From positions 124,001-188,000 of the forward strand of contig NZ_PSXX01000008.1 of assembly GCF_002931055.1 (NCBI RefSeq): 64,000 nt of DNA. Reading direction: 5' to 3'. The notes beneath the pieces were generated by a model. It made no database searches. It was not told the origin of the DNA and saw nothing but the letters and a program-made list of their open reading frames with translations. Position 1 is the stretch's first letter. Every line of letters begins with the position of its first letter. The DNA comes from Pseudoclavibacter sp. AY1H1. Lineage in GTDB: Bacteria; Actinomycetota; Actinomycetes; Actinomycetales; Microbacteriaceae. This document shows positions 4,420 to 63,477 of the stretch, piece by piece. The translations under genes were made by a program, and so were the position numbers.

Positions 4420-5730
4420 GCGCTGCAGGAGGTGCAGGCGGCTGACCATGCGGAACGCGTCGGCGCGGCCGGCGGCAGCGGCGACGAACTCGTCGAACGA
4501 CGCGTCGGCGTGGAAGTGCGCCTCGATGTCGTAGTCGACGAGCACGTCGACGGCGTTCACGAAGCGCTGCTGCGGGTCGCGGCCGACGGAGGCGAGGAGG
4601 GGAACGTCGAGGATGTGCCACGTGTCGAAGTCGCGCGCCCACTGCAGGAACTCGAGCGACGAGGTCTGCACGATGAAGAGCTCCGCGAACGTCGCCCACA
4701 GCTCGCGGCCGCGCACCGCCGTCACCTCGAACGTTCGGCCGCCGAGCTCGAGGCTCGTCGCCTCGGCGGGAGCCGGGCGCGTGGCGTCGGGTGCACGGCC
4801 CGCAGCAGCACTGGACTGCTCGTCTGCGCCGTCTGCGCCGTCGACCTGCGTCGACGGGAAGCTCGGCACGTGCACCCACGAACCGGTCGCGAAGCCCCGG
4901 CGCTCGACGGCGTCTGCGCGAGAACGGCGGTAGTCGACTTCGCCGGGGAGCTCCACGACGTCGAGCTCGCGCTCGATGAGCTCGATGCCAGGCTCGAAGA
5001 TGTGGTGGTAGACGGGGCTCGGGAGGAGGCCCTGCGGCCGGTAGTTCGAGGTCGCGACGACCGTGATGCCGTGGTCGAGGGCATACCGCAGCAAGGCTGT
5101 GAGCAGCGTCGCGTGGCCCGGGTCGTGCACGTGGAACTCGTCGAAGAGCAGCAGCTTCGCGTCGCCGATGAGTTCGCGGACGGCGTTTGCGAAGACGGTC
5201 TCGGAGCCGCGGTTCGCGAAGATGCGCGAGTGCAGCTCGTTGAAGAACGAGTGGAAGTGGACGCGCAGCTTCCGGTCCACGGGAACCGCGCCGTAGAAGG
5301 CGTCGAGCAGCCAGGACTTGCCGCGGCCGGCAGGCCCCCACAGGTAGAGGCCGCGCGGGACCGTCGAATCTGCGGCGGCGGACGCGGCGGATGCGTCGGG
5401 GCGATCAGCGTCGGCGACCTCGGAGTCGCTCTCCCCGGCGATGTCGGGGGCGCGCACCTCGACGATGTCGGGGGCGGCGTCGGCGGCTGGGCTCGGAGCG
5501 GCGTTCTCAACGGCGAGAGCTTCGTGCTCGACGATCTGCGCGCCGAGCCCTGCGAGACGCCGGGCGACCATCCGCTGGCCATCATCGAGAGTGAAGCCGG
5601 CCGCGGTCGCTGACGCCGCGATCGCAGCGAAGACCTCGCCGGCGCTCGCACCAGCAGTTTCGGGATGGGTTCCCCGCTTCGAGATGGGAAGCAACCCATC
5701 CCGAAGCGTGGAACCCATCCCGAGACTCAA
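4417..5730 (-). CDS. zapE: AFG1/ZapE-family AAA ATPase
   Basis: A 437-residue P-loop ATPase of the AFG1/ZapE family, linked in other bacteria to cell division or protein quality control at the membrane. Seen: RGLYLWGPAGRGKS with Walker A (132-139), Walker B LLLFDEFH (193-200), TSNYRP (228-232) and the C-terminal RELWATFAELF and ILDVPLL blocks. A low-complexity Ala/Asp-rich insert (about 75-122) precedes the ATPase core. The start is uncertain: residues 2-25 are encoded by a 68-bp repeat, and the first recognisable conserved stretch is FTLDDGQ near residue 46. No alternative start keeps that stretch except others inside the repeat. Just downstream of purL on the same strand, 12 bases apart. 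Confidence 0.8.
   Translation of the reverse strand: MSLGMGSTLRDGLLPISKRGTHPETAGASAGEVFAAIAASATAAGFTLDDGQRMVARRLAGLGAQIVEHEALAVENAAPSPAADAAPDIVEVRAPDIAGESDSEVADADRPDASAASAAADSTVPRGLYLWGPAGRGKSWLLDAFYGAVPVDRKLRVHFHSFFNELHSRIFANRGSETVFANAVRELIGDAKLLLFDEFHVHDPGHATLLTALLRYALDHGITVVATSNYRPQGLLPSPVYHHIFEPGIELIERELDVVELPGEVDYRRSRADAVERRGFATGSWVHVPSFPSTQVDGADGADEQSSAAAGRAPDATRPAPAEATSLELGGRTFEVTAVRGRELWATFAELFIVQTSSLEFLQWARDFDTWHILDVPLLASVGRDPQQRFVNAVDVLVDYDIEAHFHADASFDEFVAAAAGRADAFRMVSRLHLLQR
5658..5725. repeat. 68-bp palindromic element, copy 1
   Basis: TTTCGGGATGGGTT at one end and AACCCATCCCGAGA at the other, with internal GAGATGGGAAGCAACCCATC. Length 68 bp, identical to the three copies at 63.2-63.5 kb. 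It lies inside the 5' end of the zapE-like reading frame on the reverse strand. Confidence 0.75.
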
Positions 5731-13595: not shown

Positions 13596-14726
13596 GTGCA
13601 TTCCCTCACCAACAACATCGTCAAGCGTCCGACGCTGCTCTCCGACGGTCGCGAGCTCATCTACTTCGACGACGCCGACACGACGCTCGACCCCGAGCGC
13701 GCCCTCGACAGCCGGGTGCCCGCCGATCGCCCACCGGTCGCCGAGATGCGTCAGGACCCGCTCACCGGCGAGTGGATCTCGATCGCCGCGGCCAGGCAGA
13801 ACCGCGTCATGCTGCCCCCCAAGCACCTCGACCCCCTCGCGCCATCCACGCCCGCCAACCTCACCGAGGTGCCGAGCAACTACGACGTCGCCGTGTTCGA
13901 GAACAAGTCGCCCTCGTTCGGCCCCACGCTGGGCGGAGACGATACCGACGCCGACGTGCAGCTCGAGGAGCTCGCCTCCGTGGGCCTCGGCCGCACGAAG
14001 CCATCCATCGGTCGCTGCGAGGTCGTCTGCTTCAGCCCGGAGTCGGAGGGATCCTTCGCATCACTCTCCCTCTCCCGCGCCCGCACGGTCGTCGAGGCGT
14101 GGGCTGACCGCACGACGGCGCTCTCGCAGCTGCCCGGCGTGCAGCAGGTGTTCCCCTTCGAGAACCGCGGCAAGGACATCGGGGTGACGCTGCACCACCC
14201 GCACGGCCAGATCTACTCGTACCCGTACATCACGCCGCGCACGAGCGCCCTCATCCGCTCGATCGAGACGTACGGGCCGACGCTGTTCCAGGACATCCTC
14301 GACTTCGAGCAGGCCTCCGAGCGGGTCCTGCTGCGCGGTGAGCACGTCACGTTCTTCGTGCCGTTCGCGGCGCGCTGGCCGCTGGAGGTGCACATGCTTC
14401 CGCATCGTCACGTCGCCGACCTCGCCGAGACGACGGCGGAGGAGCGCGATGAGATCGCCCGCGAGTACCGCCGTGTACTCCGCGCCATCGACGCGATCTA
14501 CGACACCCCGACCCCCTACATCGCCGCCTGGCATCAGGCGCCCGTCAACTCGCACCGGGACGACATTCGGCTCATGCTGCAGATCACCTCACCGCGGCGC
14601 GCGGAGGACAAGCTCAAGTTCCTCGCCGGCTCGGAGTCGGCGATGGGCGCTTTCATCGGCGACGTCCCACCCGAAGCCACGGCAGGCCTCCTGCGCGCGG
14701 CGCTCGCGAAGGTGGACGCAGCGTGA
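13596..14726 (+). CDS. galT: galactose-1-phosphate uridylyltransferase
   Basis: A 376-residue GalT that exchanges UMP between UDP-glucose and galactose 1-phosphate in the Leloir pathway. The active-site motif HPHGQIY (201-207) supplies His203, the uridylylated nucleophile. RPTLLSDGRELIYFDD at residues 11-26 is the usual N-terminus of actinobacterial GalT. The GTG start at 13596 has GGAG only one base away, too close for a normal ribosome site, so a leaderless transcript is plausible. It overlaps galK by four bases (GTGA). Regulated by the divergent DeoR protein through the operators just upstream. Confidence 0.95.
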   Translation: MHSLTNNIVKRPTLLSDGRELIYFDDADTTLDPERALDSRVPADRPPVAEMRQDPLTGEWISIAAARQNRVMLPPKHLDPLAPSTPANLTEVPSNYDVAVFENKSPSFGPTLGGDDTDADVQLEELASVGLGRTKPSIGRCEVVCFSPESEGSFASLSLSRARTVVEAWADRTTALSQLPGVQQVFPFENRGKDIGVTLHHPHGQIYSYPYITPRTSALIRSIETYGPTLFQDILDFEQASERVLLRGEHVTFFVPFAARWPLEVHMLPHRHVADLAETTAEERDEIAREYRRVLRAIDAIYDTPTPYIAAWHQAPVNSHRDDIRLMLQITSPRRAEDKLKFLAGSESAMGAFIGDVPPEATAGLLRAALAKVDAA

Positions 14727-15886
14727 CCCGGCCGGAGCTCGCGACGACAGCCGCCGAGGCGTTCGCGCGCATCCACGGTGGGGCGCCCGACGGCCTCTGG
14801 TCGTCACCCGGTCGCGTTAACCTCATCGGGGAGCACACCGACTACAACGAGGGTTTCGTCTTCCCGTTCGCGATCGACCGGCACACGGTGGTCGCAGCGA
14901 GGCTGCGCGACGACCGACTCGTCCGCGTCTCGAGCGGCCTGCGCGAGGGCGTCGAGGAGATCGGCATCGACGAGCTGGCACCGGATGCGCTCGGCGGCTG
15001 GTCCGCGTACGCGCTCGGGGTCATCTGGGCTGCTGGCGAGCTGGGCGCCGACCTCAGCGAGGTGCGCGGCCTCGACCTGCACATCGAGTCGGATGTGCCC
15101 CTTGGGGCTGGCCTGTCCTCATCCGCTGCCCTCGAGGGGGCTGTGGCGGTCGCGATCGATGAGCTGTGGGGCCTCGGGCTCGACCGGCGGACGCTCGCTC
15201 GAGTGGGACGCCTCGCGGAGAACGAGGCCGTCGGTGCGCCGACGGGCATCATGGACCAGTCGGCGGTGCTCCTCGGCCAGCGCGACTCCGGCGTGCTGCT
15301 CGACTGCCGTTCGCTCGAGTCGAGGATCGTGCCGCTGGCGTTCGAGGCGCAGGGCCTCGCGCTGCTGGTCATCGACACCCGTGTCGAGCACTCCCACGCG
15401 AGCGGCGGCTACACGGAGCGGCGCGCGTCGTGCGAGAAGGGTGCGGCGGGGCTCGGCGTCGCCTCGCTGCGCGACGTGACGGTCGGCGACCTCGAGCGCG
15501 CAGAGCGGGTGCTGGACGACGAGACCTTCCGTCGGGTGCGGCACATCGTCACCGAGAACGCGAGGGTGCTCGCTGTCGTCGCTGCGCTCGGCGACAGCGG
15601 CCCGCGCAGCCTCGGCCCGCTGCTCGCCGAGTCGCACGCATCGATGCGCGACGATTTCGAGATCTCCGTGCCCGAGCTCGACCTCGCTGTATCGACGGCC
15701 GTCGCTGCGGGAGCCATCGGCTCGCGCATGACGGGCGGCGGCTTCGGGGGAGCGGCGATCGCGCTTGTGGAACGCGGCGATCTCGCCGAGGTCTCGCGCA
15801 GCATCCACGAGGCCTTCGCCGCGGCCGGGTTCGCGGAGCCCGCGACCTTCGAGGTGCTCCCGTCGCAGGGCGCAGGTCGCGTCTAA
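14723..15886 (+). CDS. galK: galactokinase
   Basis: A 387-residue GHMP-family kinase phosphorylating galactose at C1. The galactokinase signature GRVNLIGEHTDYNEG (30-44), the ATP loop PLGAGLSSSAAL (about 116-127) and the C-terminal MTGGGFGGAAI motif are intact. It starts at a GTG in a four-base overlap with galT, so the two are translationally coupled. No galE or transporter gene is adjacent. Its TAA stop is two bases before the first unit of the 62-bp repeat array. Confidence 0.95.
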   Translation: MTRPELATTAAEAFARIHGGAPDGLWSSPGRVNLIGEHTDYNEGFVFPFAIDRHTVVAARLRDDRLVRVSSGLREGVEEIGIDELAPDALGGWSAYALGVIWAAGELGADLSEVRGLDLHIESDVPLGAGLSSSAALEGAVAVAIDELWGLGLDRRTLARVGRLAENEAVGAPTGIMDQSAVLLGQRDSGVLLDCRSLESRIVPLAFEAQGLALLVIDTRVEHSHASGGYTERRASCEKGAAGLGVASLRDVTVGDLERAERVLDDETFRRVRHIVTENARVLAVVAALGDSGPRSLGPLLAESHASMRDDFEISVPELDLAVSTAVAAGAIGSRMTGGGFGGAAIALVERGDLAEVSRSIHEAFAAAGFAEPATFEVLPSQGAGRV

Positions 15887-15888
15887 GG

Positions 15889-17015
15889 CGCAGACATCGG
15901 GCTTGCGCATCCGCTTGCCGTCGGGCGGGTGCGCGGGTCCCAGGTCTGTGAGGTCTATGGGCGTGCTTTGCCCTGTCGGCGTGCTTCGTCTTCTCAGCGC
16001 AGACGTTGGGGTTGCGCACCTGCTTGCCGCCGGGTGGGTGCGGGAGGCTCAGGTCTGTGGGATCTGCGGGCGGGCCTCGCCCTTGTCGGCGCAGACGTCG
16101 GGGTTGCGCACCTGCTTACCGCCGGGTGGATGCGGGAGGCCCAGGTCTGTGGGTGTGCTTCGTCTTGTTGGCGCAGATGTTGGGGTTGCGCATCTGCTTG
16201 ACGCGGGGTGGGTGCGGGAGGCGCAGGTCTGGGCGCGTGCTTCGGCTTCTCGGCGCAGATGTTGGGGTTACGCACCTAGTTGCAGTCGGATGGGTGCGGG
16301 AGGCCCAGGTCTGTGAGGTCTGTGGGATCTGCGGGCGGGCTTCGCCTTGTCGGCGCAGATGTTGGGGTTGCGCACCTGCTTACCGCCGGGTGGGTGCGGG
16401 AGGCCTAGGTCTGTGGGGTTTGTGGGCGTGCTTCGTCTTGTTGGCGCAGATGTTGGGGTTGCGCATCCGCTTGCCGCGGGGTGGGTGCGGGAGGCCCAGG
16501 TCTGTGGGATCTGCGGGCGGGCCTCGCCCTTGTCGGCGCAGATGTTGGGGTTGCGCACCTGCTTACCGCCGGGCGGGTGCGGGAGGCTCAGGTCTGGGCG
16601 CGTGCTTCGTCTTGTTGGCGCAGACATTGGGGTTGCGCATCTGCTTGCGGCCGGGTGGATGCGGGAGGCTCAGGTCTGGGCGCGTGCTTCGGCTTCTCGG
16701 CGCAGACGTTGGGCTTGCGCACCTGCTAACCGCCGGGTGGGTGCACGGGGCACAGGTCTGTGGGCGTGCTTCGTCGTCTCGGCGCAGAGGTTGGGGTTGC
16801 GCATCTGCTTACCGCCGAGTGGGTGCGGGAGGCCCAGGTGTGGGGGTCTGTGGTGTGCTTCGTCTTGCTGGCGCAGACATTGGGCTTGCGCACCTGCTTG
16901 CCGCCGGGTGGGTGCGGGAGGCCCAGGTGTGTGGGCGTGCTTTGCCCTGTCGGCGCAGACGTTGGGGTTGCGCACCTGCTTGCCGCCGGGTGGGTGCGGG
17001 AGGCCCAGGTCTGTG
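15889..17015. repeat. tandem array of thirteen 62-bp palindromic units with mosaic linkers
   Basis: Thirteen units each begin CGCAGA, run through TTGGGGTTGCGCACCTGCTT-like and GGTGGGTGCGGGAGG-like sequence, and end GGTCTGTG or a close variant. Units whose ends I checked (first, second, thirteenth) are 62 bp. Starts are near 15889, 15998, 16087, 16170, 16252, 16351, 16443, 16535, 16617, 16699, 16781, 16870 and 16954. Linkers of roughly 20-47 bp are built from a few recurring pieces, one with GATCTGCGGGCGGGCC and others with GTGCTTCGTCTTGTTGG or GTGCTTCGGCTTCTCGG. Ends of each unit are imperfect inverted repeats. Long reading frames across it are repeat artefacts. Confidence 0.85.
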
Positions 17016-17055
17016 GGTTCTGTGGGGTCTGTGCGCGCGCGGCCCGGCCGCGTGC

Positions 17056-17571
17056 CTACCCGCGCGGGGCGAGCGACACGATGAGGTCGGTGCGCAGGTC
17101 GTCCGGGTTCATGTCGGGGCTCGGCTCGGTGACGTAGATCTCCACCATGGAGCCGGGCTCATCGCCAGAGTCGCGGAGGTCCTGGATGAGTCGACCCCAC
17201 GATTCGCCGAGGCCGTCGAATGATCCGAGGTGCGACGCACCGGCCGCGGCTCCCGCCGGGAGGGTGGAGTTCTGGATCGTCACGTCGCCGACGAGCGTCT
17301 TCTCGCGGATCGGCTCGACGACCGGGAAGCCGATCTCGACGTCGAACGTCTGCGATGGGTCGCCGTGGTAGACCGCGAGGGCGGGTCCGGAGGGATGCAC
17401 CTTGTCGGCGCCGATCGCTGCAGCCATCGCCTGGAAGGTCGTGTCGAAGAGCGTCCGTAGCTCGCGCATGCTGACGTTGTCGTAGCGCGCGACGGCAAGT
17501 GGAACGGCGCTCAGCTCGAAGCGCTCCACGCCCTGGCGGGGCGAATCGGGCAGCGGAAGTGTCTCTGGCAT
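17056..17571 (-). CDS. GyrI-like / AraC-effector-binding domain protein
   Basis: A 171-residue stand-alone GyrI-like (SOUL/BmrR effector-binding) domain: VERFELSAVPLAVARYDNVSMREL, then FDVEIGFPV, the paired strands of the fold, and a final MVEIYV. No DNA-binding domain is attached. Such proteins bind small hydrophobic ligands or act as gyrase inhibitors or hydrolases; function here is unknown. The ATG at 17571 with GAGGAGG eight bases upstream was chosen over a longer frame. Its stop is about 40 bases from the end of the repeat array, and the next gene is divergent. Confidence 0.75.
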   Translation of the reverse strand: MPETLPLPDSPRQGVERFELSAVPLAVARYDNVSMRELRTLFDTTFQAMAAAIGADKVHPSGPALAVYHGDPSQTFDVEIGFPVVEPIREKTLVGDVTIQNSTLPAGAAAGASHLGSFDGLGESWGRLIQDLRDSGDEPGSMVEIYVTEPSPDMNPDDLRTDLIVSLAPRG

Positions 17572-17817
17572 GGTGTCCTCCTCGACGCCCCACTCGAGCG
17601 GGGCAGATGCTTGACGCCAACCTAGGGCAACGGGCCGTGCGCAGGACGTCATTCACGGGTGACCTCCCCGGATTCTCGGCGGGTTCCTGGCATCGCTCCA
17701 GCGTGGGTCCAGCGCGGACGACGGCGCGCCGAAGGGCTACTATTCCGCAGGTGGCGCGCCGGCGCAGAAGACGGTCGGGTGGATGCGCCACCGAGCGACG
17801 AGAGACACGAGCTGCGC

Positions 17818-19308
17818 ATGAACACGGTCGAGAACGACGGCATCGACTCAGGGGCGACCCCGAAGCGGCCGCTCGCGCGGGCGCTCACGGCGCGGCACAT
17901 CCGCTTCATGGCGCTCGGCTCGGCCATCGGAACCGGCCTCTTCTACGGGTCCTCCGCCGCGATCCAGGCCGCGGGTCCGGCGGTCCTGCTCGCCTACATG
18001 ATCGCGGGCGCCGCCGTCTTCATGGTGATGCGCGCGCTCGGCGAGATGACGGTGCGCCACCCCGTGACGGGCTCGTTCGGGCAGTTCGCGAACCGCTACC
18101 TCGGCGCACGCTGGGGGTTCATCACGGGCTGGACGTATGCGTTCGAGATGATCGTCGTCGCGATCGCCGACGTCACCGCGTTCGGCGTGTACATGGGTTT
18201 CTGGTACCCGGACGTCGCCCGCTGGGTGTGGATCGTCGCCGTCATCCTCTTCATCGCCGCCATCAACCTGCTCGGGGTGCGCGCGTTCGGCGAGCTCGAG
18301 TTCTGGCTCGCGCTCGTGAAGGTCACGGCCATCATCGCCATGATCGCCGGCGGCATCGCGATCATCATCTTCGGCTTCGGCAACCAGTCACCGGATGCGT
18401 CTGGCATCGGGGCGCTCTTCAACCCGGCGACGGGCGGTTTCTTCCCCATGGGCATCGAGGGCGTCATCGCGTCGTTCGCGATCGTGGTCTTCGCGTTCGG
18501 CGGCATCGAGATCATCGGCATCACGGCCGGCGAGGCGCAGGACCCGAAGCGCGTCATCCCGAAGGCCATCAACAGCGTGCCGCTGCGCATCCTCCTCTTC
18601 TACGTGGGCGCGCTCGCCGTCATCATGATGCTCGCGCCGTGGAACACGATCACGGGTGACGCGAGCCCGTTCGTGTCGATCTTCGATGGCCTCGGGATCC
18701 CCGCGGCCCCGCACATCCTGAACTTCGTCGTCATCACGGCGGCCCTCTCGGCCATCAACTCGGACGTGTTCGGCGCTGGCCGCATGATCTTCGGTCTCGC
18801 CGAGCAGGGCCAGGCGCCGCGCGTGTTCCTCCGCGTCTCCGGGAACGGCGTGCCATGGGCGACGGTGGCGCTCATGGTCGCGGCGCTCGCGGTCGGCGCG
18901 TGGATGAACGCCATCATCCCCGAGGACGTCTTCCTCGTGATCGCCTCCATCGCGACCTTCGCGACGGTGTGGGTGTGGATCATGATCGTCTGCTCGCACA
19001 TCGCCATGAAGCGCGACATCGCGCGCGGCGGACGCAGCGCATCCGAGTTCCCTGTGCCGCTGTGGCCGTTCGCGTCGTGGGCGACCCTCGGCTTCCTCGT
19101 GTTCGTGCTCGGCGTGCTCGGCTGGTTCGAGAGCACCCGCGTCGCGCTCATCGTCGGCGCGGTGTGGCTGGCCCTGCTGCTGCTCGCGTACCGGTTCGCG
19201 GTGGGCTCCGCCGGCAAGCGCCGCGCTGAGCTGGTCGACGAGACCACGGCGCTCGAGGTTCAGGCTGGTCGGCAGACGCCGGAAGTCAAGGGCACCTCCC
19301 GCGACTGA
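17818..19308 (+). CDS. amino acid permease (APC superfamily, AAT type)
   Basis: A 496-residue transporter with about 12 membrane segments. It opens [21 protein letters not shown], the conserved first segment of the AAT family (AroP/GabP/ProY group), and carries [15 protein letters not shown] and the GEAQDPKR loop. The family imports amino acids with protons. The sequence does not define which amino acid; aromatic amino acids, proline or GABA are all possible. It stands alone between a divergent GyrI-like gene and thrC. The ATG was chosen because the conserved cytoplasmic N-terminus follows within 20 residues; ribosome site is weak. Confidence 0.9.
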
Positions 19309-20795: not shown

Positions 20796-20862
20796 GCCAA
20801 GTGGATGCGCTCGCTCGCCGGGCGCATCCACCCGCCTCTTGCCTGCCCTGTGCGCGCGGCAA

Positions 20863-20914
20863 ACATGTGAAAAATGCATGCTCTCGACGTCGGGAGCATG
20901 CATTTATTGCATGT
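20863..20914. terminator. long hairpin between convergent thrC and YdeI genes
   Basis: AAATGCATGCTC (20872-20883) pairs perfectly with GAGCATGCATTT (20894-20905) around a 10-base loop, and outer ACATG/CATGT extends the arms. Position between convergent stops fits a bidirectional terminator, with A and T runs on either side. A related hairpin follows purF at 44562-44600. Confidence 0.6.
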
Positions 20915-20963
20915 CTGCGTCGGGGAGACGGACATGCAGGCGGGAGACGCGCCGGCGGGGCGC

Positions 20964-44477: not shown

Positions 44478-44561
44478 GCACGGGACTCTACCGGCGCGCA
44501 GAGCTGCGCACCGACCCCGCTCGGCGGCCGAAACGCACCGAGCGTCCCCGCGGGAACCTAT

Positions 44562-44600
44562 GGAAAACGCATGCTCGTCGTGTGACGAACATGCGTTTCC
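44562..44600. terminator. hairpin after purF
   Basis: GGAAAACGCATG (44562-44573) pairs with CATGCGTTTCC (44590-44600) with one bulged base, and an inner TCGTC/GACGA stem closes the loop. It follows the purF stop by about 20 bases and resembles the 20863 hairpin (both carry ATGC arms next to A runs). Confidence 0.6.
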
Positions 44601-44620
44601 CGGAGGTCTGTCCCGCTCGG

Positions 44621-56313: not shown

Positions 56314-56665
56314 GCTGCCGCGTCGTGCGTGCCGCGTCCTGCGCGCCACACGGCAAGACGTCGGTCCTTGGCGGATTCACGGAGGTGGCGACCTGCAGAT
56401 ACCCCAGGTCTGCGAGCGTCGGGGCCGTATCCCGCGCAGACTTCGGGCATGTGCAGGCGCGGCGGTGCGCACGCCTGCGCAAGGCCGAGGTCTGCGTAGC
56501 TGGAGTGCGCCCGACCCGCAGGTCACCTTCGTCTCAACGCCGGCCCAACGCCGACCCTGACCAGCGCTGAGCAGCCCGCTCCGAACCGGCTCCGGCACCC
56601 GCAACTCATCCCGTGATCTGAGAACGCAGTAGCCGGAACCGCCGTGACGTTCTTATTCTGTGTGC
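56314..56665. other. 352-base intergenic region before the second ergothioneine-type block
   Basis: No gene. It holds a solo 62-bp palindromic element (56435-56496) and, just before the amidohydrolase, TATTCT near 56653, which could be a -10 box placed only a few bases before the GTG/ATG. That would mean a nearly leaderless message. Confidence 0.45.
56435..56496. repeat. solo 62-bp palindromic element
   Basis: CGCAGACTTCGGGCATGTGC at the start and GCGCAAGGCCGAGGTCTGCG at the end; the arms pair at 21 of 25 positions. Same length and same CGCAGAC/GTCTG ends as the array units at 15889-17015. Confidence 0.7.
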
Positions 56666-63295: not shown

Positions 63296-63364
63296 CTTCA
63301 CTGGCCGCTTCGTGACGTCGCCCGCCCGCCCGCGCGCCGCGCCCGCCGCCCCCGCGCCGTCCGG

Positions 63365-63432
63365 TTTCGGGATGGGTTTCACGCTTCGGGATGACTTGCA
63401 ACCCATCCGCGTGCGTGTATCCCATCCCGAAA
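63365..63432. repeat. 68-bp palindromic element, copy 3
   Basis: TTTCGGGATGGGTTTCACGC to ATCCCATCCCGAAA, 68 bp, 137 bases after copy 2 and sharing its flank. Confidence 0.8.
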
Positions 63433-63477
63433 CTTCACTGGCCGCTTCGTGACGCCGCCCGCGCCCGCGCCGCACGG

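Follow-up and report, generated by a model that had tools for sequence, protein, structure and literature searches.

The thirteen palindromic units found behind galK in this soil actinobacterium represent a single locus, expanded in this lineage, of a REP-like family of 60-bp palindromes that is dispersed over the genome; relatives carry the 60-base palindrome two or three times in the same place. These palindromes constitute a new sequence family of REP-like repeats, with unusually strict length and a location mainly at convergent gene ends. Our main reading, to which we give a probability of about 0.5, is that of an expanded locus of a vertically inherited family, with a boundary role suggested by its position at convergent 3' ends and with arrays tolerated after the loss of SbcCD. 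The window below is the whole 64-kb stretch of DNA that was analysed.

Architecture of the array behind galK

Thirteen direct copies of one unit lie at positions 15890-17014 of the window, between galK and a convergent GyrI-like gene (Table 1). The preliminary description had reported a thirteen-unit array directly after galK and between convergent genes, and this was found, with galK on the left and the GyrI-like gene on the opposite strand on the right. It had also given a fixed unit of 62 bp. The length is indeed constant, but 62 bp is slightly too long: the ungapped alignment A1 (62 units from five genomes) has 60 columns. Start-to-start distances in the array are 109, 92, 82, 82, 100, 91, 92, 82, 82, 82, 89 and 82 bp, which leaves linkers of 49, 32, 22, 22, 40, 31, 32, 22, 22, 22, 29 and 22 bp (exactly 22 bp in 6/12). 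The linkers thus vary in length as described, over 22-49 bp and not about 20-47 bp. They consist of a 22-bp module plus 0-27 extra bases, apparently (by eye) copied from the 3' end of the unit itself (GTCTGTGGG), and "shuffled from a few modules" was a fair account of them. All 13 units scored 49-63 bits with a position weight matrix, compared with a best score of -3.4 in one base-shuffled copy of the window. The palindromes are imperfect, with Watson-Crick (WC) bases at 13-18 of 26 pairs.

The three-unit block of units 2-4 recurs as units 7-9, and two linkers are identical between the blocks. Block duplication by recombination or slippage is therefore needed, and the earlier view that the array is something other than a simple tandem duplication holds, given this block and the non-uniform spacing. 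Recombination or repeated insertion had been put forward as the cause; the former, or slippage, is required for the block duplication, whereas repeated insertion is unnecessary because four relatives have 2-3 units in the same gap. A uniform repeat period in a corrected assembly had been named as the observation that would speak against the array. The sister array on contig C19 is itself uniform, all nine spacings being 72 bp, so uniformity would not refute the array finding.

A known RNA family was ruled out by the Rfam search, which gave no match at the gathering score in window positions 15000-18000 and 10 loci. Plasmid or phage origin of the array was also rejected, with no blastn match in either collection.

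Table 1. Positions of the array, its neighbours and other same-family elements in the window
Feature	Position	Strand	Remarks
galK	14723-15886	+	Left neighbour; Pfam galactokinase and GHMP domains
Unit 1	15890-15949	+	Most palindromic copy (18/26 WC pairs); first base is base 4 after galK end; nearest to units of relatives
Linker, 49 bp	15950-15998	+	
Duplicated block (units 2-4)	15974-16273	+	Second copy (units 7-9) at 16421-16720, 91% identity
Units 2-5	15999-16314	+	Starts 15999, 16091, 16173, 16255; linkers 32, 22, 22 bp
Linker, 40 bp	16315-16354	+	
Units 6-13	16355-17014	+	Starts 16355, 16446, 16538, 16620, 16702, 16784, 16873, 16955
GyrI-like domain gene	17056-17652	-	Convergent right neighbour
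Weak single 60-bp element	44552-44611	.	23 bits; strand not assigned
Single same-family 60-bp element	56436-56495	+	48 bits; locus common to L064/L074

A dispersed family of strict length

The preliminary description had suggested searching the genome for the unit and comparing unit number between strains. The search found more arrays and solitary copies, so the unit is not private to the galK locus. The galK-GyrI gap holds 2 units in G005, 2 in G001, 3 in G007 and 3 in G002, compared with 13 in the window's genome (one degenerate 59-bp unit of G007 at galK was missed by the position weight matrix). In the window's genome (G000; 4.2 Mb, 25 contigs), further arrays are located on contigs C25, C20, C19, C21 and C2, with solitary copies elsewhere. 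A covariance model made from 62 units matched six of 10 genomes of the genus and none of the other four; the sixth, G009, has one marginal match (E 0.005), which leaves five genomes in practice. Strand-matches in these five numbered 97, 59, 54, 35 and 28 (150 candidates scored per genome). With stricter filters, two of 150 sampled genomes of the family matched, both of them Pseudoclavibacter (1/85 genera), and no match was obtained in the 84 other genera sampled. The exact arm pattern occurs in 22 stretches of a named genome collection, six from Pseudoclavibacter, including the record of P. helvolus DSM 20419, and 16 single matches in unrelated organisms; the opposed arm was absent in all four examined of these 16. 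The stretches examined contain 58, 29 and 22 units per genome in the G000/G001/G005 group vs. 18 and 14 in G002/G007, in 8-14 clusters per genome, G000 being covered more fully than the others in both counts.

Elements occur singly, paired or in arrays. Each is composed of two opposed 20-bp half-sites flanking a variable 20-bp centre, with the arm pattern CAGACnTnGG....GnGCA. Among 134 opposed half-site pairs (search range 40-100 bp, tandem copies counted), 130 measured 60 bp, one 59, two 62 and one 75 bp; outside arrays of at least five units the proportion was 76/77 (the half-site matrix came from the 60-bp units of A1, with units of 59, 61, 62 and 75 bp left out). The starts of close neighbours are 69-74, 80-84 or 88-92 bp apart, with clustering at 72-74 and 80-84 bp, and spacings of 75-79 and 85-87 bp were never seen. 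We make no claim of helical phasing, since the best of 14 periods for 29 independent spacings was 8.5 (p 4e-5; for 9.75-10, p 0.001-0.002; uncorrected). A DNA uptake sequence was rejected as well: 47/49 arm matches with at most two mismatches fall inside elements, so the arm is not a scattered word. Integron attC, CRISPR and protelomerase sites were considered by eye.

Several contigs end less than 200 bp from an element (the end of G000 C21, the end of G005 C7, and the starts of G005 C2, G005 C17 and G001 C5), and draft assemblies may therefore undercount arrays. A second palindrome family of ∼60-72 bp, unrelated in sequence (GGGATGGGTT...AACCCATCCC) and mostly intergenic, was observed at window positions 5662-5721 and 63364-63433, and at L017:12670-12733, L091:47-116 and L102:208-271; the copy at 5662 sits inside a called gene. 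Other ∼60-bp palindromes (e.g., GCAAACATG...CATGTCTGC) are found at window positions 20859-20918, L063:9143-9208 and L073:8944-9001. Their ends resemble those of the 60-bp family, of which they are perhaps distant members.

Both neighbouring genes were called for 50 clusters, 38 of which are convergent, 9 co-directional and 3 divergent, with 5 more clusters at contig edges (three shared loci received different orientation classes in different genomes). When orthologous clusters were collapsed, 24 distinct loci were obtained (14 convergent, 5 co-directional, 2 divergent and 3 edge only); placement is non-convergent at a third of distinct loci. The gene calls came from a simple caller and gaps of 1-3 kb are probably missed genes; with both genes within 450 bp, the counts were 25 convergent, 8 co-directional and 3 divergent (n = 36). 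Element-free gaps in the same regions comprised 28 convergent, 157 co-directional and 53 divergent ones (n = 238; 12% convergent). No cluster extends more than 20 bp into a called gene, and the nearest stop codons are 12-17 bp from the elements, as for the GyrI-like gene in four relatives. With so few clusters found per genome, the elements cannot be a general way to end convergent genes.

Descent, array growth and loss of sbcDC

Inheritance of the elements is vertical: at most shared loci the two flanks correspond between species, and up to five species share a locus. In an unrooted tree of units, based on short sequences and with two 59-bp units padded, not aligned, unit 1 of the window groups with units of relatives and the other 12 are placed apart (support 0.92). 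By eye, unit 1 of G007 has the same left arm as the copied units of the window, so that their founder may be older than the expansion. Three arrays have a near-perfect member (window, 18; C19, 20; C20, 24 of 26 WC pairs); it remained single in each, and units with 13-17 pairs were copied. None of the other arrays has such a member. Arrays expand locally, through tandem and block duplication. At L092:4569-14767 of G007, ∼10 kb lies between two copies of an element pair where relatives have one pair; the genes of this segment were named by eye as ABC sugar transporter, LacI-like regulator and glycosidase-like.

SbcCD is reported to remove the hairpins that inverted repeats form, with possible protection of REP heterodimers (PMC3733652). 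The sbcDC genes were lost in the window's genome and in two of the four relatives. SbcD was not found in G000, G001 and G005 by a family model or by a search with the G007 protein, which gave in G000 only a 15.5-bit match containing stops; SbcD is present in G002 and G007. The genes sbcD and sbcC of G007 lie at L113:8689-13043, and in G000, G005 and G001 (L123, L124 and L125) both flanks are intact and both genes gone, a clean loss. Clusters of at least five units account for 7/39 clusters in the three genomes without SbcD vs. 0/16 in the two with it (Fisher p 0.09 before correction for relatedness), six of the seven being in G000 and one in G001. The three genomes without SbcD also have the most units, and the strand-matches rank in the same way. 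G005 has no SbcD, yet no cluster above three units. Elsewhere in the genus, G008 has neither SbcD nor elements; in G004, G006 and G009 SbcD is present and elements are practically absent; G003 gave a weak partial match only. In a tree rooted on the distant G003, G000 is basal, so the loss of sbcDC happened once or twice. Drawn from five genomes and one or two loss events, the link between SbcCD loss and large arrays is a lead, not a demonstration. As the shared loci occur in species with and without sbcDC, they make it possible to test directly whether palindrome arrays are limited by SbcCD in non-model organisms.

Constraint, possible role and related repeats

In 41 orthologue comparisons (gaps not counted), elements differ at 0.178 of positions and the nearest flanks and linkers at 0.363. 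Symmetrised positions 3, 5, 6, 8, 10, 11, 16, 18, 19 and 20 differ by 0.01-0.08. Relative to the flanks, some arm bases change 4-36 times less, and adjoining arm positions are free; this conservation is partly ascertainment, as the family model used to find elements prefers those same bases and diverged orthologues can therefore be missed. WC pairing across loci was 0.689 vs. 0.651 when shuffled, with 0/2000 shuffles reaching the observed value (39/85 units: clusters of at least five units left out, one genome per locus); on A1, pairing does not exceed shuffles. Strong stem covariation was accordingly rejected, being absent on A1 and weak on representatives. Of the 275 pairs that changed between near relatives (matching by best identity, within locus groups), 87 had switched on one side between WC and G.T/A.C and 84 on one side between WC and mismatch; 3 were WC-to-WC double changes and 101 others. 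The results favour base recognition over a mere hairpin, with pairing kept weakly, and a bound DNA site is therefore preferred.

RNA folding of unit 13 gave -39.3 kcal/mol (z -3.4) for the + strand vs. -20.9 (z -0.1) for the other; the strong fold on the + strand alone is due to G.U pairs. The window array has 70 G.T vs. 2 A.C. The sum of (GT-AC)^2/(GT+AC) was 172.7 for 56 array units vs. 34.0 for 27 units occurring alone or in pairs: in large arrays one strand retains most of the pairing, an asymmetry not seen in solitary or paired units. In most arrays the linkers, too, are rich in G+T on that strand (0.54-0.74). Within the window array, 14 C>T and 14 G>A changes were counted in a unit with 16 C and 27 G, which makes C>T ∼1.7 times as frequent per available base. 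The equal counts indicate that the asymmetry was for the most part already present in the founder unit; they do not support continuing strand-biased mutation as the only cause of this G.U asymmetry, and a mild per-base bias is possible. Our guess is that a degenerate palindrome is easier to tolerate in tandem, hence such founders. The asymmetry of the arrays, and the folding of unit 13 in galK sense only, would also suit transcribed one-strand RNA hairpins (3' UTR stabilisers or processing sites) kept by sense-strand G.U pairs. However, the linkers have no need to pair and are G+T-rich on that strand too, tandem copies are not independent and seem to take their asymmetry from the founder, and by eye the stronger strand is inconsistent with gene direction in co-directional clusters. 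We consider such hairpins quite improbable.

We read the elements as bipartite sites of REP type, marking convergent 3' ends and probably bound by a protein. The 60-bp element would serve as a boundary there. The effector could be a dyad-binding protein attached to the duplex site and/or a hairpin in the transcript, and it may halt, insulate or topologically relieve converging transcription. Large arrays would have been tolerated because the lineage lost the hairpin nuclease SbcCD. The unusually strict length and the base pattern point to a protein worth finding. It is doubtful that the whole chain applies, in which the bipartite palindrome and a putative dyad-binding protein fence convergent genes and SbcCD loss leads to expanding arrays of degenerate palindromes; if true, this would be a natural experiment in which a hairpin nuclease shapes the repeat landscape of a bacterial genome.

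Convergent placement could also reflect bidirectional transcription terminators, an RNA hairpin on both strands ending both convergent transcripts. Stop codons are as near as 12-17 bp, some solitary units form strong hairpins on both strands (e.g., -56.0/-55.4), and convergent bidirectional terminators are known (PMC5381666). No T-tract follows the stem, however (T amounts to 10% over 110 cluster ends, 101 of which have no T run longer than 1), which makes a canonical intrinsic terminator unlikely. Scanning of two regions revealed no terminator-like site, near relatives preserve the pairing poorly, and an RNA loop would not need a fixed length of 60 bp. We regard terminators in general as unlikely. 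Functionless selfish or relic repeats (MITE/REP-like) might survive where they are least harmful, and convergent gaps are a harmless place; REPs of other phyla are located mostly between unidirectional and convergent genes (PMC3733652). Against this, the Y1 (RAYT/IS200-type) transposase (PF01797) was found in 0/7 genus genomes, with 5/14 control genomes positive, and at shared loci certain arm bases show higher conservation than the flanks, in part by ascertainment; this explanation, too, is unlikely. The missing Y1 transposase also rules out RAYT/REP mobilisation, and the elements are thus not RAYT-type REPs.

No description of such repeats in Pseudoclavibacter was found in the titles and abstracts of open-licence literature. 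Mycobacterial MIRU-VNTRs are intergenic tandem repeats whose copy number differs between related genomes. The galK locus is similar in that copy number at one intergenic site varies between related genomes, and the differences could serve strain typing; unlike a MIRU-VNTR, the unit here is palindromic and is found as a single copy at many loci, too. The M1/M2 repeats of Pithovirus are likewise palindromes in intergenic clusters, for which growth by recombination has been proposed and an SbcD-like nuclease discussed; they belong to a giant virus, are longer and have putative target-site duplications (PMC10664404). Bidirectional intrinsic terminators also place a hairpin in the gap of two converging genes (PMC5381666), whereas the 60-bp elements have no T-tract, are longer and show fixed length and conserved base identity.

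The closest likeness is to REP/BIME/REPIN sequences (GTAG and CGTC super-families), which are dispersed extragenic palindromes, often paired and at times clustered, near 3' ends and between convergent genes (PMC3733652, PMC2817692), as are the 60-bp elements. The main text of PMC3733652 does not contain the word Actinobacteria. The elements differ from REP/REPIN in length (60 vs. 20-40 bp), in copy number (14-58 units per genome in the stretches examined vs. >100 copies), in the missing GTAG/CGTC tag (the A1 consensus, read from the alignment, ends GCAG... and ...TCTG) and in the missing Y1 transposase in the Pseudoclavibacter genomes searched. They are an actinobacterial, transposase-free counterpart to REP elements.
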